A stretch of 64,000 bases of DNA from Lacticaseibacillus suibinensis (GTDB taxonomy: Bacteria; Bacillota; Bacilli; Lactobacillales; Lactobacillaceae): positions 1 to 64,000 of the forward strand of contig NZ_RHOK01000013.1 of assembly GCF_003946175.1 (NCBI RefSeq), given 5' to 3'. The number at the start of each line of letters is the position of its first letter. Positions within the stretch are counted from its first letter, which is position 1. The translations under genes were made by a program, and so were the position numbers. Under the pieces are notes generated by a model. The model was not told the origin of the DNA, did no database searches, and saw only the letters and a list, made by a program, of their open reading frames with translations. This document shows, in pieces, positions 3,701-54,116 of the stretch.

Positions 3701-5142
3701 TAATACTGCGTTTTTGATTTGGAAGCCTCCTGCATCGTATAACCTGGCACATTAAAGTTCCAGTACTTTGCGGGAGCGATGGCAGATCCGGCAGTGTACC
3801 CTGTACTGGTACCAAAAGTTGATTTACCCTCAGTATTTTTGACGGGGTTACCGTCTGGATCAACCAAATTAAAGGTCACATTGTGCTTCTTCTGAGTATA
3901 AGAGATATCGACAGACTGCGGAGAATCCCCATACGTCAGTGCTGCACTTGTGCCGTCATCAGTAAGCGTCCAATCGTCAACAGTCTTATCAATTTGACTA
4001 AAATCAACAGAAGCACCAAGAGTACCGGTCAGAGTGACTGATTTCTTAACTTGTTTGGTTGGATCCGATGCGCTAATAAAATTAACCGTAATCGGAGCGC
4101 CTTGCGTTTTCTTCCCTTGATAAGTGATGGTGAGTTCGGAAATACCATGATCTTTGAACTCATTCGGGGAATCAAGTCCTAGGTCAGCCAATGATGTGGT
4201 CAAGTCCGCAAAGTTAGTCGCCTTGGCAAACGTGCTCTGAAGTACGGATTGCGTGGTCGAATCTAGATTGGTCGTGGTTTTTGCTGGACTGAATTCATAG
4301 TTAGCTGGCGCGCTCAGTGGGGTAAAGTCGATATTCCCATCTAGCGGTAAATCAATGCTTTGGGCGGAATCGGGAATTTCGTTGCCGTCATCATCCAGGT
4401 ACTTGTAATTAACGGTGAACGTTTCTGCAACCGGCGCAGTATCACCGGTATCACCGGTATCGCCCGTGCTTCCTGTACTCCCCGTGTCGCCTGGATTAAG
4501 TACTACGCCATCATCGTTTGAAATCTGAATATCCTTCAACAAAGTGGGATTTGGTGACAGTGGCTGAACATAAATCCCCACATAACCACCGGATTCACCG
4601 AATAGCTGCTCCACAATGTCAGCCGGAAAGGTGTATTTAAAGCCACCGGCACCAGCCACGGTCGTGCTTGAGAACCAGCCCAGCAGCGGGACACCACCGG
4701 TCTCAGAACGATCACCAAAATCGAGCTGTACTGGATCCGACTCAGCGCCAGTAGTCGTGTTAACTAAGGTCACGCGTTCCAGATAGACCTCTTTTGGTAG
4801 GCCGTCCACGGTGACGGAAACAGGCTGATCAACAGCAATATGCCCACTGCCGTCATCAATCCCAGAGACAGTAATCGTTGCATGGACTTCCGTGCCACGA
4901 ATGTTGACATATGCGTCTGAAGGCCTTGTTTCGCTAATTGTATCTCCGGCTGCCGCCCTCGTAACCTGAAGGCCAGAAGTACTTAGAATGCTGGGACCAA
5001 TAATTGAGCCACCACCAATAACAGTACCGGCAAACATGGTGAATGCAAAACGCCAAAATTTTCCGGCCTTATACATTTTATAATCTTTTACGACTGGGTC
5101 ATACGGTTTAAGTAGCGGACCCGATTTTGGTCTTGATTTCAT
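1..5142 (-). CDS. Giant KxYKxGKxW surface adhesin with MucBP-like, Mub-B2-like and collagen/EF-hand repeats (partial)
   Basis: The frame is open for 1714 codons from ATG 5142 to the left edge, so the C-terminus and any wall anchor lie outside. A GGAGGAG box precedes the start. Residues 23-31 read KMYKAGKFW, the KxYKxGKxW signal typical of large secreted adhesins of lactobacilli, followed by a hydrophobic stretch and an AAA cleavage region. A short GDTGSTG-type segment lies near residues 218-234. Several MucBP-like units follow (recurring pattern GYxLxxDG... with VNLVDxxGK). Two Mub-B2-like units lie near residues 977-1050 and 1100-1180 (HYDxTHKTLT ... YGxWT). Collagen-like GxT/GxK triplets lie near 1327-1360, and from about 1480 they alternate with five SAFEAWKDNGG-EF-hand units. 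Probable role: mucus or matrix adhesion, possibly calcium-stiffened (inference). Repeat-rich sequence is prone to assembly collapse. Confidence 0.9.
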   Translation of the reverse strand, partial: MKSRPKSGPLLKPYDPVVKDYKMYKAGKFWRFAFTMFAGTVIGGGSIIGPSILSTSGLQVTRAAAGDTISETRPSDAYVNIRGTEVHATITVSGIDDGSGHIAVDQPVSVTVDGLPKEVYLERVTLVNTTTGAESDPVQLDFGDRSETGGVPLLGWFSSTTVAGAGGFKYTFPADIVEQLFGESGGYVGIYVQPLSPNPTLLKDIQISNDDGVVLNPGDTGSTGSTGDTGDTGDTAPVAETFTVNYKYLDDDGNEIPDSAQSIDLPLDGNIDFTPLSAPANYEFSPAKTTTNLDSTTQSVLQSTFAKATNFADLTTSLADLGLDSPNEFKDHGISELTITYQGKKTQGAPITVNFISASDPTKQVKKSVTLTGTLGASVDFSQIDKTVDDWTLTDDGTSAALTYGDSPQSVDISYTQKKHNVTFNLVDPDGNPVKNTEGKSTFGTSTGYTAGSAIAPAKYWNFNVPGYTMQEASKSKTQYYTVTSSDDQVFDVVYDKIPTGTVTVNLVDQNGKLVEAGSKKNTYSYTGPIGEAVDFSKLGIDKDIAGYELVTDGTTTATTIVADNTTVDIAYKKKAGVLVELVDDNGTVISLDGYTTTYQIDAAVGDVLTSADFAKANINKELPGYRLKNDGTSTAYTVTDSDSNLVKIVFEKIPDVTLTVNLVDTDGKAVTNTDGKSVYTLSGQPDTDVDWTAAGINKTVTGYQLAGDGTIAPLKFAEGMPVVKITFAKEWKVTVSFVDEAGSSLQNTDGQSSVDYTGVTGDTLDFAGLNKTVDGYTVETDPTASSYIIQTGDTQSLKIVYKANGPHIYTPTEPGNQNDGDPIGVTSRYLIATVGTHIHYTGDVSGLPTDKEIEGTSIYRTATIDDSGTIHYTPWTTNPSGTPGSDDTILLSGITNAPQYVPVVAGAKAVIDDTTNQDIKSPDLQGVAKTVGNVSGVGGGFVGKNGFTAFVVTRNVNYTADTPNLQWHQPPTATTDPHYDATHKTLTVTVTEVKDGNKTIQNTQTVTLTREYQKDDNSDSNEATAYGDWTVANTYSEYTPTTYDGYTADKQIVASKTSTDDGSNVDALVALMQAADGDADQTANVTVTYTKDPKLVVHPAPDDPTAKHYDETHKTLTIIVDAIKDGETQQLDKQELTFSRTYTTDENDPSDTVVEYGAWTQDTAFKTVTPEVISGYTVNPTVIDGSAIGTEGISANQSATLFSSSDSAQDDSATITATYTVVAPETGTGVVHYVYQDVNGVELRAPENVSGEEGYDYSNDYDIPDQLSGEGLNLPDAGGTLDTSVLYYYATADMNGGQINFLPDDSKADAAFNTTGQDIWVMYVAKPKAGDKGATGEAGATGAVGEKGPQGDKGPVGDKGASGDAATPLTITGQRLDGDGNTVIEFSDGKEITVHHGADSMIAVEPITKDGKVTGYTLTIDGQDYTINDGKDGQNGVGITDYATDADGNIVLNLSNGEKITLPKGAKGDTGATGAVGDTGAKGDTGAAGQSAFEAWKDNGGTDADGDGNIDVDDMIQDLTGDTGAKGDTGAKGDTGAAGQSAFEAWKDNGGTDADGDGDIDVDDMIQNLKGDTGAKGDTGAKGDTGAAGQSAFEAWKDNGGTDADGDGDIDVDDMIQNLKGDTGAKGDTGAAGQSAFEAWKDNGGTDADDDGDIDVDDMIQNLKGDTGAKGDTGAAGQSAFEAWKDNGGTDADGDGDIDVDDMIQDLTGDTGA

Positions 5143-5546: not shown

Positions 5547-5890
5547 TCATTCACCGCGTTCAAGGCCTACTGCGATTGCCGCTTTAACTGCCTCTGGAAG
5601 AGGCTCGTGTCCCAATCTGACTACTTTGTTAGCTGCTTGATTGCTTCTAAACGGTTCCTCATATTCACAGACGCTCACCTTATCGATTGCGATATCGCTC
5701 TGCTCTTGACTCGAATGTGCTTGGCAACGGCGTCGCCGGTAAGCCCCACCATACTGACACAGTAACCTTCTGCCCAAAAGTGGCGATTGCCAAACTTAGA
5801 TTTCAGATTCGCGTGTTTATCAAACATCGCCAGCACACTCTTACCTTTGAAATAGCCCATGTATGCGAACACGCTAAGCTTCGGCGGCAT
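5547..5890 (-). pseudogene. tnpA: IS200/IS605-family transposase TnpA, truncated and frameshifted
   Basis: Minus-strand translation from 5890 gives the C-terminal half of an IS200-type Y1 transposase: MGYFKGKS, then FDKHANLKSKFGNRHFWAEGYCV. The frame breaks near 5715 and continues in another frame as SDIAIDKVSVCEYEEPF, to a stop at 5547. Family members are about 150 residues. The N-terminal part, including the metal-binding HUH segment, is absent to the right of 5890, so the element is dead. The downstream hairpin at 5468-5500 probably marks its end. Recognised from the GNRHFW and EYEEPF family blocks. Confidence 0.8.
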
Positions 5891-31788: not shown

Positions 31789-32760
31789 TTAATAGAGATC
31801 GATAATCTTTTGCAGATAATCGACCACGACCTTGGGCAGATCTCCGCGCATCAGCAAGGCTTCCAGCAATCGACTGCGGTTGTACCAGGCGTTCCAAAAC
31901 TTGATGTTCTCTTGCGGGCGCACGTCATGCAGGCGCGTCTGCCAGGCCGTCAGGCACATCACCAAGGAATCGGCATAGAACTGATGCTTCACTGCCAGAT
32001 TAACCAAATAAGCGGCGATGCGTTGATCCTCACCGTACACCAGCGGCACGGTCATGCGCTGCCAGCCAGCCAAAATTGACGCCATCAGGAAAATCTTTTC
32101 CCCACGCGCCAGGCCGGTCACCTGCGTCAGCTCATCAGCTAAATTGCCGATATGCGTGTAGGCATGGGCCCAGCCGCCGCCATCCACATAGCCGCGGCCG
32201 TCGCGCTCCAGCAGCACGTAGACACACAATCGCTGCAAAAGGCCGCTATATTGTTTGCTGGACAAGGCGTGGTAGCGATTTTGGTCGGCGTACACAAGCC
32301 CTGATAGCAACATCACGGCGAAACTGCGCTGAAAAACGGCATCGTTTTGCGGCTCCATGATATGGGCGAAAAGGATATCGGGTTGTTGCAGCGTGTTAAA
32401 CAGCCAGCTCACCTGAGCGGTAGTGAAGGCATCCATCTGAAACAAATCAGACAGCAGGAAAAAGGCGCCTTTGTCGCGCACTGCGGGACTGCGACTGGCG
32501 AGATGTGCAACCAGAAACGTCAGCTCATCATCGCTCACACTAGGCGTGGCGGTTTTCTTCACCCGCTGGCGAATCGTATGCATTTTGGCCAGCGCCGCTA
32601 AATCATCGTCGGGCAAAGCCACTGGCGTTGCTGGCTCCACCGCCACCGAAGCCATCAAGTGATCCAGCGCAGCTGGCAGCTGCTGAAACAGCTGGCCAGC
32701 CAGTAATTGTTCGCGTAAAGCGCGGACGGCTTGCGCCACGCTTTGAAGTTGAGTCGCCAA
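31789..32760 (-). CDS. DUF2785 family protein
   Basis: 323 aa, predicted all-helical, HEAT-like. The block GRGYVDGGGWAHAYTHIGNLADEL near residue 200 marks DUF2785 (recognised as GRGYVDGGGWAHA). Also FFLLSDLFQ and VYGEDQRIAAYL. Function unknown; cytoplasmic. The start is TTG 32760 with AAGGAG 7 nt upstream, and it lies 15 bp downstream of the YueI gene, so it is probably co-transcribed with it. No terminator with a T tract was seen immediately downstream. Confidence 0.85.
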   Translation of the reverse strand: MATQLQSVAQAVRALREQLLAGQLFQQLPAALDHLMASVAVEPATPVALPDDDLAALAKMHTIRQRVKKTATPSVSDDELTFLVAHLASRSPAVRDKGAFFLLSDLFQMDAFTTAQVSWLFNTLQQPDILFAHIMEPQNDAVFQRSFAVMLLSGLVYADQNRYHALSSKQYSGLLQRLCVYVLLERDGRGYVDGGGWAHAYTHIGNLADELTQVTGLARGEKIFLMASILAGWQRMTVPLVYGEDQRIAAYLVNLAVKHQFYADSLVMCLTAWQTRLHDVRPQENIKFWNAWYNRSRLLEALLMRGDLPKVVVDYLQKIIDLY

Positions 32761-38827: not shown

Positions 38828-38861
38828 GCAATGGTGCGATGGCGTTAAAGTGCTGGTAATC

Positions 38862-39027
38862 GGCTACCTGCTTGGCTAAGCGCGACCTTGCTCCGTAGCC
38901 TGTAGTTGCACTGCGCGAGGCCAACGCCCGAGCCAATAGCTACACACCAGACCTCACCAGCTAAAAACGCTGGCAAGGCCTGGTGCTAGGCTATTGGTCA
39001 GGCTAAGTACGGCCTTGCTCCGTAGCC
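38862..39027 (-). repeat. 127-bp structured repeat array in the metI 3' region (one full, one partial unit)
   Basis: The full unit spans 38901-39027 and starts, on the minus strand, at the base right after the metI TAA. A partial second copy (38862-38900) repeats its start GGCTACGGAGCAAGG. Contains a long hairpin with arms 38945-38961 and 38969-38985 and a second hairpin gttgca ... ccaac. Homologous to the array at 53832-54116. Confidence 0.8.
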
Positions 39028-39714
39028 TTAGTGATGCAGTCGTTTCGCGAATAAATCCCCGATAAACTGAATCAGGAACACCAGGATCAAGATGAAGATC
39101 ATGGCCACCCAGGTGACGTCGTTTTGGAAGCGTTGGTAACCTACCGCAATGGCCAAGTTACCTAAGCCACCGCCGCCAACTGCGCCGGCCATGGCAGTGA
39201 GACCAATGACACTGATGATGGTCAAGACACCGACACGAATCAGTTCGCTCAGGCCTTCGCGCAGGTAAACGCGAAAGACAATGGCGGCTGGGGACAGGCC
39301 CATGGCTTCAGCCGCCTCAATCACCCCAGGGTCAATCGTCAGCAAGGCGTTTTGGACCTGCCGCGCAAAGAATGGCGTGGTGCCCAGCACCAGTGGCACC
39401 AAAGCGGCGGTCGGGCCGATGCCGGTGCCCACAATCAGGCGCGTAAAAGGATTCAGCACCGCCAGCAAAATAATGAAGGGAATGGCCCGGAAGATGTTGA
39501 CGATTTTGTCCAAAATCCAGTACACCGGACGGTTCGCCAGTAAGCCATGATCATCGGTCAGCACCAAGAAAATGCCAATTAAAATGCCGAGGACACCAGC
39601 GATCAACGCCGTGAAGAAGGTCATGTACAGCGTTTGACCAATGGATTGGGTCACCCCACCATCACCGGTCCAAATCGGAATCACGTTAGGGAAGAGTTTT
39701 TCGATAATGTTCAT
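39028..39714 (-). CDS. metI: Methionine ABC transporter permease MetI
   Basis: 228 aa, five or six membrane helices. Permease EAA-type loop: [33 protein letters not shown] (recognised as [10 protein letters not shown] near residue 135). Also [13 protein letters not shown]. Forms the MetNIQ importer for methionine and its derivatives. ATG 39714 overlaps the metN stop by 4 bp (ATGA), so the genes are coupled. The stop codon is followed directly by the structured repeat array. Confidence 0.96.
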
Positions 39715-45852: not shown

Positions 45853-46089
45853 CTAGCGAATCAGGTACTGCAAGCTACCAGCCGCGGTAATCAGCGACAG
45901 GAAAAATTCGCTGACGTTGTAGCCAATGGCAATGGCCAAAAAGATCATCAGCAGTTGGCTTTCCCGCTCGTGGCCGGCTTTGAGCAATTTATCAAACCGC
46001 AGCGCAAAAAGCAGCCGAAAGGTGATCATGATAAATACAAAATGTGATACCAGCGTCAAGGCGCCGGTAATGCCCAAATCAGTCGCCAT
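45853..46089 (-). CDS. DUF1146 family membrane protein (YwzB-like)
   Basis: 78 aa with two hydrophobic segments (VSHFVFIMITFRLLFAL and MIFLAIAIGYNVSEFFLSLI). The motif FRLLFALRFDKLL is that of DUF1146 (YwzB), a small protein usually lying between the ATP synthase operon and murA or mreB in Firmicutes. Function unknown. ATG 46089 follows CGGAGGCC. It lies about 80 bp upstream of mreB on the same strand. Confidence 0.88.
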   Translation of the reverse strand: MATDLGITGALTLVSHFVFIMITFRLLFALRFDKLLKAGHERESQLLMIFLAIAIGYNVSEFFLSLITAAGSLQYLIR

Positions 46090-46180: not shown

Positions 46181-46370
46181 CGCTGGCTGCACGCGGCCTG
46201 CTGTGCGGCCGGCCGGAGCCAAAGGTCGGTCTCCGACCTAGTTTAGAAGCCGCAGTCGCTACGCTCCGGTGCGTCTTCTAAACTGCCGCGATGAGGACTG
46301 GTCAGCCTGCCAAGTGCGCAGTCTGACCAGTCCTCATCGTCTCACTGCTGGCCTCACGCCCCAAGCGCCG
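46181..46370 (+). repeat. Three-hairpin structured element, copy D
   Basis: Hairpin a: ggccggag (46211-46218) with ctccgacc (46231-46238). Hairpin b: agtttagaag (46240-46249) with cttctaaact (46275-46284), extended by cgca/tgcg. Linker GCCGCGAT. Hairpin c: a perfect 16-bp stem, 46290-46305 with 46323-46338. Weaker outer pairing encloses all three. Same architecture as copy E on the other strand. Confidence 0.75.
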
Positions 46371-46611
46371 TCCCCACCACCGAAACACACTGGATAACAG
46401 TAAAAACACAACCCGGCCACATCGCAATGAGAACTAATCAACACTAGCAAAAATATTCAAGCCAAAGAATGTGCCCTTCAACGAAACTCCAGATAAACTT
46501 TTCGAAGCGAGTATTTCTGAACTACTCATCGCAAAGTAACCGGCGAAGATGCCAAAACACCTTAAAAAACGTCAATCCGCATTTATATTCTGGCACCCCT
46601 TTTGTTATGAA

Positions 46612-46852
46612 GCGGGTTGCGGTGGTGACGGGCGGAGCCTGGCGGGGGTCTGGCCGTGAAACGATTAGCGACAGGCAGACCGGCGCGGTTTTTGGGCAGG
46701 GCTGCCCAGAGCTAATCGCGGCAAAGTCGAAGACAGCAACGAGCGAAGCGAGGCTGGCTTCATCTTTGGGTCCGAGACCGGTTTTCGGCTCGGACCGGCC
46801 GCACAGCCAGCACCCCCGCCAAGCGGAGCCCACCAACGCCGCAACCTGCGGC
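46612..46852 (-). repeat. Three-hairpin structured element, copy E (inverted)
   Basis: Long outer stem: 46612-46657 pairs imperfectly with 46801-46852. Read on the minus strand: hairpin a ggtccgag / ctcggacc (46796-46769); hairpin b aaagatgaag / cttcgacttt (46767-46723), extended by cagc/gctg; linker GCCGCGAT; hairpin c cgattagc / gctaatcg (46718-46662), with an inner gggcag / ctgccc palindrome. Order and linker are the same as in copy D. Confidence 0.75.
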
Positions 46853-46875
46853 CCGGTCCATCAAAACCCAAGAAC

Positions 46876-46904
46876 ACAAAAACAGCACCGCTAAGCGCGA
46901 TGCT
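46876..46904 (-). terminator. Terminator of the atp operon
   Basis: Minus strand: agcatcgc / gcggtgct stem, loop gctta, then GTTTTTGTG; 17 bp past the atpC stop. Confidence 0.85.
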
Positions 46905-46920
46905 GAATTGATTGGTCTGA

Positions 46921-47358
46921 TTAACCGCCCAGGCCGCTCTTGCGGACGTGGATTCGGTTGATGGCGCGCTGCAGGGCCACTTGGGCACGTTGCAGTTCGT
47001 CTTGATCCCGATGGCTCTTGGCATCCTCGATGCGGCGTTCGGCGCGCTTGCGCGCAGCTTCCGCCCGCGTCAAATCGATATCGCGAGCCCGTTCGGCAGA
47101 GTCGGCGACAATCGAACAAACATTGTTCGACATCTCCATGAAGCCACCATTCACGGCAATCATGTTTTCATGGCCGGGGCTGTCAACGCGGCGAACGCGC
47201 ACTTCCCCGATCACAAGTGGTGCAACAACGGGTTCATGGTTGGCCATGATCCCCATATCGCCAGTGGTGGTTTTCACCACCACGAGGCTGGCATGGTGAT
47301 CATAAACCAAACCATCCGGTGTCACGATGTTAACAGTCAGGACATTTTGTTCTGCCAC
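46921..47358 (-). CDS. atpC: ATP synthase F1 epsilon subunit
   Basis: 145 aa. N-terminal beta-sandwich: [39 protein letters not shown] (recognised blocks [10 protein letters not shown] and [13 protein letters not shown]), then a C-terminal helical hairpin rich in Glu/Arg ([20 protein letters not shown]). Central-stalk subunit that can inhibit ATP hydrolysis. GTG 47358 follows AGGGAGGGG. Last gene of atpBEFHAGDC. Confidence 0.97.
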
Positions 47359-53831: not shown

Positions 53832-54116
53832 ACGGCAAAGATGATGCGCAGACCTGCGCAGCTTTAGTTGCGCTCCCCGGGGGCAACGGATGAGTGTCTA
53901 GCTACACTCATCACCTCGAAGCCAAAGTGCGGCTTCAATGCGTTGAGCTAGGCTAGTCGTCCGGCAAAATGCGGTCGCCCTCCGCAGCCTGTTTAGTTGC
54001 GCTCCGGTCGGCAACGCGCGAGCGATTAGCTACGCTCATAGCCTCACCGGCAAAAGGCGCCGGTAAGGCTATGAGCTAGGCTACTCGTCGCGCTAAGCCC
54101 GCCGACCTCCGCAGCG
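53832..54116 (-). repeat. 127-bp structured tandem repeat array in the upp 3' region (two full units, one partial)
   Basis: Units 53990-54116 (127 bp) and 53864-53989 (126 bp), plus a truncated tail 53832-53863. On the minus strand the first unit starts at the base right after the upp TAA with CGCTGCGGAG. Each unit holds a long hairpin (arms 54035-54051 / 54059-54075 and 53907-53923 / 53931-53947; loop of seven) and a shorter gttgc ... gcaac hairpin. Homologous to 38862-39027. Confidence 0.82.

Follow-up and report, generated by a model that had tools for sequence, protein, structure and literature searches.

What kind of element is the pair of inverted, diverged structures that separates the DUF1146 gene from atpC in Lacticaseibacillus suibinensis? 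The window that we analyzed is a 64,000-nucleotide stretch of this genome, and the original prediction, made from its letters, had placed two related three-hairpin elements, D and E, at this site. That relationship held: alignable from end to end, D and E have a lead (GCTGTGCGGCCGG), a linker (GCCGCGAT), and three hairpins in common, and both match one covariance model with conserved pairing. We scored them with two such models: R1, for which 39 halves were taken from this genome and L. suilingensis and which was used at a threshold of E ≤ 0.01, and R2, built from alignment A4 of matches in nine other genomes of the genus. With D and E each termed a half, the site reads as follows.

45853-46089, minus strand: DUF1146 gene, context (PF06612, E 5.1e-18)
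46181-46401, minus strand: half D, truncated at its outer left end (R1, 156.1 bits; R2, 129.7 bits), made up of the inner end motif (46385-46401), the structured core (46198-46348), and the remains of the outer arms
46198-46348, minus strand: core of D, from the cmsearch alignment (E 2.6e-28) and covariation, with closing stem GCAGTG/CACAGC, hairpin c, inner stem CGG/CCG, and hairpins b and a
46385-46401, minus strand: inner end motif of D, ACTGTTATCCAGTGTGT, from a pattern search with 2 mismatches
46402-46601, no strand: spacer of 200 bp, measured between the inner end motifs
46601-46617, plus strand: inner end motif of E, TTTGTTATGAAGCGGGT, from a pattern search with 3 mismatches
46612-46852, plus strand: half E, complete, from the fold (R1, 139.3 bits; R2, 117.7 bits), made up of the outer stem with a GGCGGAGC/GCGGAGCC internal loop, the core, and the outer stem again
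46653-46809, plus strand: core of E, from the cmsearch alignment (E 1.7e-25)
about 46662-46719, 46723-46767, and 46769-46797, plus strand: hairpins c, b, and a of E, limits set by eye
46872-46905, minus strand: likely intrinsic terminator of the atp operon, assigned by eye, adjoining the outer end of E and outside the element; D and E lie downstream of it
46921-47358, minus strand: atpC, context (PF02823 and PF00401)

Five inverted pairs were found in the window by a repeat search, and D and E form the only one longer than 34 nt, with inverted arms of 108 nt that are 70% complementary. As single strands, D folded with a z score of -7.5 and E with one of -5.1, and none of 200 dinucleotide shuffles did as well; the RNA fold of the entire 821-nt stretch favored a D-E duplex. 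Several details of the first description changed. D had been assigned to the plus strand and E to the minus strand, and the wobble pairs suggest the opposite, a folded strand that is plus for E and minus for D and that starts at the inner TACTGTTATCnAGCGGGT. The 240 bp first given for the spacer takes in part of the outer arms. The outer stem of E, put at about 45 bp, has by our count roughly 42 to 43 pairs in several runs, which is close to that figure. D is without 41 nt of its left outer arm, so the long stem is visible in E only; the 41 nt are present in the L. suilingensis orthologue. The 127-bp units elsewhere in the window (38848-39028 and 53882-54096) had been assigned to another family, and indeed the covariance model of the D/E family matched none of them. 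Units resembling these vary in presence or extent between this genome (G000) and L. suilingensis (G015) near G000:C8:17226 and C8:17940-18045.

The gap between DUF1146 and atpC measures 831 bp here and 870 bp in L. suilingensis, where D and E are both present. L. hegangensis and L. jixianensis have a gap of 143 bp, and R2 found no element in these two or in 15 other related loci (best E, 0.31). Because of the empty 143-bp gaps, we conclude that D, the spacer, and E are an insertion, made most simply on the branch leading to this genome and L. suilingensis. The proposal of a composite or foldback mobile element was partly supported: the unit is an inserted composite, but D and E do not form the ends of a private foldback. 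The family has at least 34 matches in this genome, pairing is conserved within each half, and the halves of a doublet resemble each other less, on average, than re-paired members do. At the D/E site we saw no target duplication, the empty gaps being too diverged to place the junction. ARAGORN found no tRNA in the window, and Rfam 15 gave no match at the gathering threshold in the window or in 15 related loci, the best subthreshold match at the D/E site having an E value of 0.03. The atpC-DUF1146 gap of L. porcinae (L063) is 1,301 bp long and holds a different long multihairpin stretch that carries a CGCTACGCTC loop, along with another GC-rich region; Rfam and R2 match neither.

A half is about 250 to 300 nt long and takes one multibranched shape. 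From the inner end, a TAGC-type foot (TACTGTTATCnAGCGGGT in this genome and GTAGC in several other species) is followed by the outer stem, the closing stem, hairpin c, and the inner stem that encloses hairpins b and a, after which the outer stem returns. The sequence of the outer stem varies from copy to copy and is complementary within each copy, with an internal loop of the GGA/GGA type; this stem and its loop were assigned by eye, and the core was taken from RNAalifold. Conserved letters stand at hairpin mismatches, AGAC opposite GGCT. Core matches span about 90 to 270 nt with two or three hairpins, and there is a short version of the family, seemingly without hairpin b.

Stems that differ in sequence had been predicted to pair nonetheless, and compensatory change is found throughout the family alignments. 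In alignment A3 (73 halves from this genome and L. suilingensis), 98.1% of cells are paired, an absolute percentage that leans upward because the alignments were fitted to models, and 31 of 48 pairs are doubly changed; the covariation score is 0.517, versus 0.162 when shuffled and at most 0.074 with the partners slid. The doubly changed pairs number 44 of 48 in A4 (34 distinct halves from nine other genomes of the genus; 0.590 versus 0.152 shuffled), 43 of 48 in A6 (27 distinct halves, nearly all from other genera; 0.605 versus 0.194), and 29 of 44 among 15 halves from outside the Lactobacillaceae (0.452 versus 0.147). A model-free MAFFT alignment of 39 halves gave 28 of 48. These results support conserved pairing that lies within each half.

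As a DNA query, the core of E found 21 places in this genome at E ≤ 1, and R1 gave at least 34 matches here and at least 42 in L. suilingensis. R1, with 102 candidates scored in each genome, matched 11 of 30 Lacticaseibacillus genomes, and 19 were without a match. A search of the Lactobacillaceae with R2, run with stricter filters and no more than 15 candidates scored in each genome so that copy numbers are lower bounds, matched 24 of 201 genomes and 8 of 40 genera. One of these genomes, G127, of another genus, has a single near-identical copy (L231) with the C12:175169 flank of this genome, which may reflect contamination (3% reported) or plasmid transfer; leaving it out gives 23 genomes in 7 genera. 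In a search of the whole order, R2 matched 10 of 198 genomes and 4 of 54 genera: this genome, one more of the Lactobacillaceae, seven of a genus (g4) whose genes point to Streptococcus and in which each genome has one or two copies, and a genome from another family that has 11. Within the window, R2 matched D and E only, the next E value being above 1. At four of the five g4 loci read (L262, L274, L275, and L276; not L273), the copy lies directly upstream of purE, identified as AIR carboxylase by Pfam for L262 and by reading of the same protein start for the other three. Rfam had no match in the g4 loci scanned (L262 and L263).

Three L. paracasei plasmids match one half of the family. In two of them (L261, about 3990-4100; L260, about 4990-5100), an apparent IS5-family insertion interrupts this half in hairpin b, and the copy in L261 has a cation P-type ATPase on one side and the IS5 gene on the other. 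The plasmid flank resembles the C12:175169 site of this genome. Phage carriage was rejected, as a viral contig held a single exact 17-mer in surroundings that look unrelated and coding. We conclude that D and E belong to a large, dispersed noncoding repeat family of many lactobacilli. The family is apparently undescribed, having gone unreported in the titles and abstract starts found in open-licence PMC literature.

In lactobacilli, neighboring halves nearly always face each other. Among the 150 R1 matches listed, neighbors less than 1.5 kb apart had facing inner ends in 28 of 28 pairs from six genomes, and 14 further pairs among later matches (3, 4, and 7) also faced. The exceptions in the Lactobacillaceae are two pairs, one direct with 310 bases between and one on the same strand 1.2 kb apart. 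In a genome of family f5, outside the Lactobacillaceae, both neighbor pairs are direct repeats, which so far confines the facing rule to lactobacilli. Identity between partners is 49 to 66% in 8 doublets here and 38 to 68% in 10 of L. suilingensis (38% in one that is damaged), many of these doublets being counterparts of each other in the two species. The mean identity of partners is lower than in random re-pairing, where 2 and 18 of 2,000 trials were as low; the scarcity of partners above 75% is not significant, since 177 and 273 of 2,000 re-pairings also had none. Counterselection of near-identical facing repeats would explain such unlike partners.

We compared spacers between the two species at five sites. 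At the D/E site, the cores are kept in L. suilingensis (95% identity for D and 91% for E), and the spacers, 200 bp here versus 198 bp there, are unrelated (z 0.65). At C45, the 164-bp spacer of this genome is unrelated to the ends of an 839-bp spacer in L. suilingensis that contains a GNAT-acetyltransferase gene (Pfam). The three remaining spacers are homologous and strongly diverged (z 7 to 13). The D/E spacer was not found elsewhere in 30 genomes of the genus or in phage and plasmid collections, and 12 of 13 extracted spacers, searched against the 30 genomes, gave only their own places plus two partial matches that we take as counterparts. Capture of phage, plasmid, or host DNA was rejected as the source of the spacers on these grounds. 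The GNAT gene was likewise rejected as mobile cargo. It has no match in this genome at E ≤ 1e-20, and a relative lies beside the same left-hand neighbors in G001, G006, and G008, so the halves flank an apparently ancestral gene that was lost here.

The 32 listed halves of this genome make up 24 sites, whose 600-bp flanks we compared with a set of L. suilingensis stretches, each of them an element locus. Both flanks fell in one stretch at 21 sites; at C45, the flank search placed only the left flank and another comparison showed the counterpart, which brings the shared sites to 22 of 24 and implies that recent transposition is rare. Seven of the 22 were examined at the level of single bases. 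Of the C4 counterpart only a relic is left, and that of C3 has no recognizable element; neither is a clean empty site. Of 28 half-slots compared, 16 had the positional counterpart as best match, with core identity of 87 to 97%. In 11 others, the counterpart was 51 to 73% identical and another L. suilingensis copy was 85 to 95% identical; among these, the better copy for the minus-strand half of L033 comes from the opposite half of that doublet, and the counterpart of the plus-strand half of L042 is damaged. The remaining slot, L014, stood at 78% versus a truncated partner. At C12:175169 and C12:13183, the outer arms are partly slot specific and the core is changed, which looks like conversion or replacement in place. 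A complete half also adjoins the remnant of an older, other-type half at G000:C52 (about 32104-32340) and G015:C1 (about 267294-267371), as if new halves inserted at or in old ones.

Across the 16 conserved slots, paired positions differ at 3.1% (48/1,534) and unpaired positions at 9.2% (83/903), and the fourfold-degenerate sites of 36 flanking genes differ at 22.5% (894/3,977). Among 766 pair cells in the stems, 30 are changed on one side and 9 on both, and Watson-Crick pairing is retained in 8 of these 9. The fold is either under selection or homogenized. Deletion relics occur at L022, L029, and L037 and at the C4 site of L. suilingensis.

The family PF01797 (Y1_Tnp), which includes the RAYTs, had no match at E ≤ 1e-4 in 6 of the 11 genomes of the genus that bear elements (G001, G006, G007, G011, G016, and G038). 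In this genome and L. suilingensis, it occurs only as fragments or with stops; open frames were found in the element-bearing G013, G039, and G041 and also in several element-free genomes. Y1 genes do not track the elements, and mobilization by a resident Y1/RAYT transposase is not supported. A fragment of a Y1 (IS200-type) transposase lies in the window at 5738-5890 on the minus strand, with a 71-aa open frame.

As described in the parts of the source papers compared here, a REPIN consists of two inverted REPs around a less conserved spacer, with a fold predicted for single-stranded DNA or mRNA (PMC3116915); REPs are palindromes of 20 to 40 bp, and many singlets are remnants of doublets (PMC3116915, PMC3733652). 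The family described here is similar in consisting of dispersed extragenic repeats that form inverted pairs around a less conserved spacer, and the TAGC (GTAGC in several species) at the foot of its outer stem is like the GTAG tag that REPs carry, the alternative being CGTC (PMC3733652). It is unlike REPs in its halves of 250 to 300 nt, its multiway junction, its unlike partners, and the lack of a RAYT/Y1 gene that tracks the copies. It thus has the inverted doublets of REPINs, in lactobacilli, and fails on unit size and a cognate RAYT. The phyla listed for REPs in the compared part of PMC3733652 exclude Firmicutes, and Lactobacillus goes unmentioned there.

From the part of PMC3049150 compared, BOX, RUP, and SPRITE are pneumococcal repeats with about half of their insertions common to all strains, and BOX turns over slowly, its mobilization by IS proteins being only proposed. 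Like BOX of Streptococcus pneumoniae and S. suis, our repeats are small, interspersed, and structured, belong to the Lactobacillales, and have a predicted stem-loop fold. BOX itself has a mosaic make-up, boxA-boxB(n)-boxC, with modules in tandem; compared by description, no such module was recognized here. S. suis also has boxE and boxF modules (115 and 133 nt), and one stem-loop family, Lac-1, is listed for L. johnsonii in PMC2267715. MITEs and neisserial mosaic repeats resemble the family as short, nonautonomous, highly base-paired intergenic repeats (background in PMC3049150, as compared), but the "ends" here are large folded elements of unlike sequence and, unlike MITEs, are not AT-rich. 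By analogy, we file the family as small interspersed structured repeats that may work like REPINs and BOX. In attC sites and IS200/IS605 ends, an enzyme reads a folded single strand with unpaired extra bases, and the sequence may vary. The halves would share with these a putative folded single strand that is read while its letters are free to vary; they differ in size and architecture.

We favor, with about even confidence, the reading that the D/E family consists of large REPIN/BOX-like repeats whose folded strand is recognized and exchanged by an enzyme. The recognized object would be a single DNA strand, the one with the TAGC end at its start, in the folded form it could take while DNA is replicated or taken up, and a structure-reading nuclease or recombinase would copy or exchange halves between sites, much as a RAYT is believed to move REPINs. 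Recombination between dispersed halves could swap cores and let a spacer be replaced, and near-identical facing pairs would probably be lost as unstable palindromes, leaving the unlike partners. Selection on the fold rather than on its letters would explain the compensatory changes. Against this exchange stand the absence of an enzyme in the PF01797 search, of a target-site duplication, and of an exact empty site. The rarity of recent transposition, the direct neighbor pairs in f5, the D-E duplex in the RNA fold of the 821-nt stretch, and the nonsignificant scarcity of look-alike partners also count against it. We infer mobility from the dispersal of the family, its patchy occurrence, and its in-place exchange.

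The main rival to an exchanged DNA repeat is a structured RNA. Each half could be the gene for such an RNA, or a leader or trailer domain, that spread and came to stand in facing pairs by duplication, with selection on the RNA keeping the fold; we consider this possible, though doubtful. The complex multihelix junction, the unpaired letters conserved across genera, and stems conserved about sevenfold better than fourfold sites would suit an RNA. So would the excess of G-T pairs. Counted on the strand that starts at the inner end, G-T pairs exceed A-C mismatches by 49 versus 26 in A3 (without one conserved G-T column), 42 versus 9 in A4, and 47 versus 15 in A6 (without L231), in model-fitted alignments whose model may lean to G-T. 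This excess suggests that the fold is read on that strand, and it counts against the DNA reading because an RNA would give the same excess. Wobble pairs are nevertheless rare: G-T makes up about 1.5 to 4% of pairs, which is low for an RNA and tilts the question, rather than deciding it, toward folded DNA.

Neighboring genes also bear on the RNA, as located with a crude ORF caller. On the inner side, 44 of 69 read toward the element, a lean that a mobile repeat need not show and that therefore counts against it, but on the outer side genes read either way (38 toward and 33 away, of 71). We rejected a 3'-untranslated-region or leader rule, since the outer side shows no rule and the inner side only a lean. 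The inner end motif was rejected as a promoter, since by eye there is no convincing -35 and the motif is not conserved in other species. The lack of a promoter pattern at the inner ends and of an Rfam match at gathering level speaks against RNA genes, which also do not typically stand in facing pairs, occur patchily, or change type in place. The copies just before purE in g4 resemble a fixed RNA leader more closely than they do a mobile repeat. Single copies before purE favor a leader and dispersed pairs in lactobacilli favor a mobile repeat; both may be right.

It is unlikely that the halves are DNA structures that serve the host, as bidirectional transcription barriers or as binding sites for gyrase or nucleoid proteins. 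Such roles have been proposed for the BIMEs of E. coli. Purifying constraint, the sites common to L. suilingensis, and several copies that lie directly after apparent intrinsic terminators (by eye) agree with a host structure, but 19 of 30 genomes of the genus do without copies, no tie to a protein was found, and the multibranched fold exceeds what such a role needs. A strand bias relative to replication was rejected: L. kribbianus copies looked one-sided on some contigs, where the GC skew is weak and inconsistent in direction. The halves could also be neutral remnants of a mobile family from the past that now neither function nor move. This would account for the deletion relics and is very improbable, being already contradicted by orthologous stems that differ so much less than fourfold sites and by other-type cores at shared sites, unless gene conversion alone gave the low divergence.

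Beyond the exchanged repeat that we favor, we venture a wider and distinctly speculative scheme, in which self-folding repeats across the Lactobacillales would pass between multicopy mobile pairs and fixed single-copy leaders (those before purE in the presumed streptococci), a dedicated structure-reading enzyme would move them and exchange them in place, the unlike facing pair would be the working unit, and the spacer would be an exchangeable cassette. In the papers compared, most of what is described on small interspersed repeats in Gram-positive bacteria concerns pneumococcus and S. suis, and the present family is large, with tens of copies in several lactobacilli and no Rfam match. Its covariation amid freely varying sequence offers a test bed for the recognition of folded DNA or RNA. 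With cores changed and spacers replaced at sites common to both species, exchange within a genome becomes directly measurable by strain resequencing. At the start of the window, positions 1 to 1170 hold tandem repeats with spacings of 18, 132, and 150 bp that resemble a repetitive protein gene.
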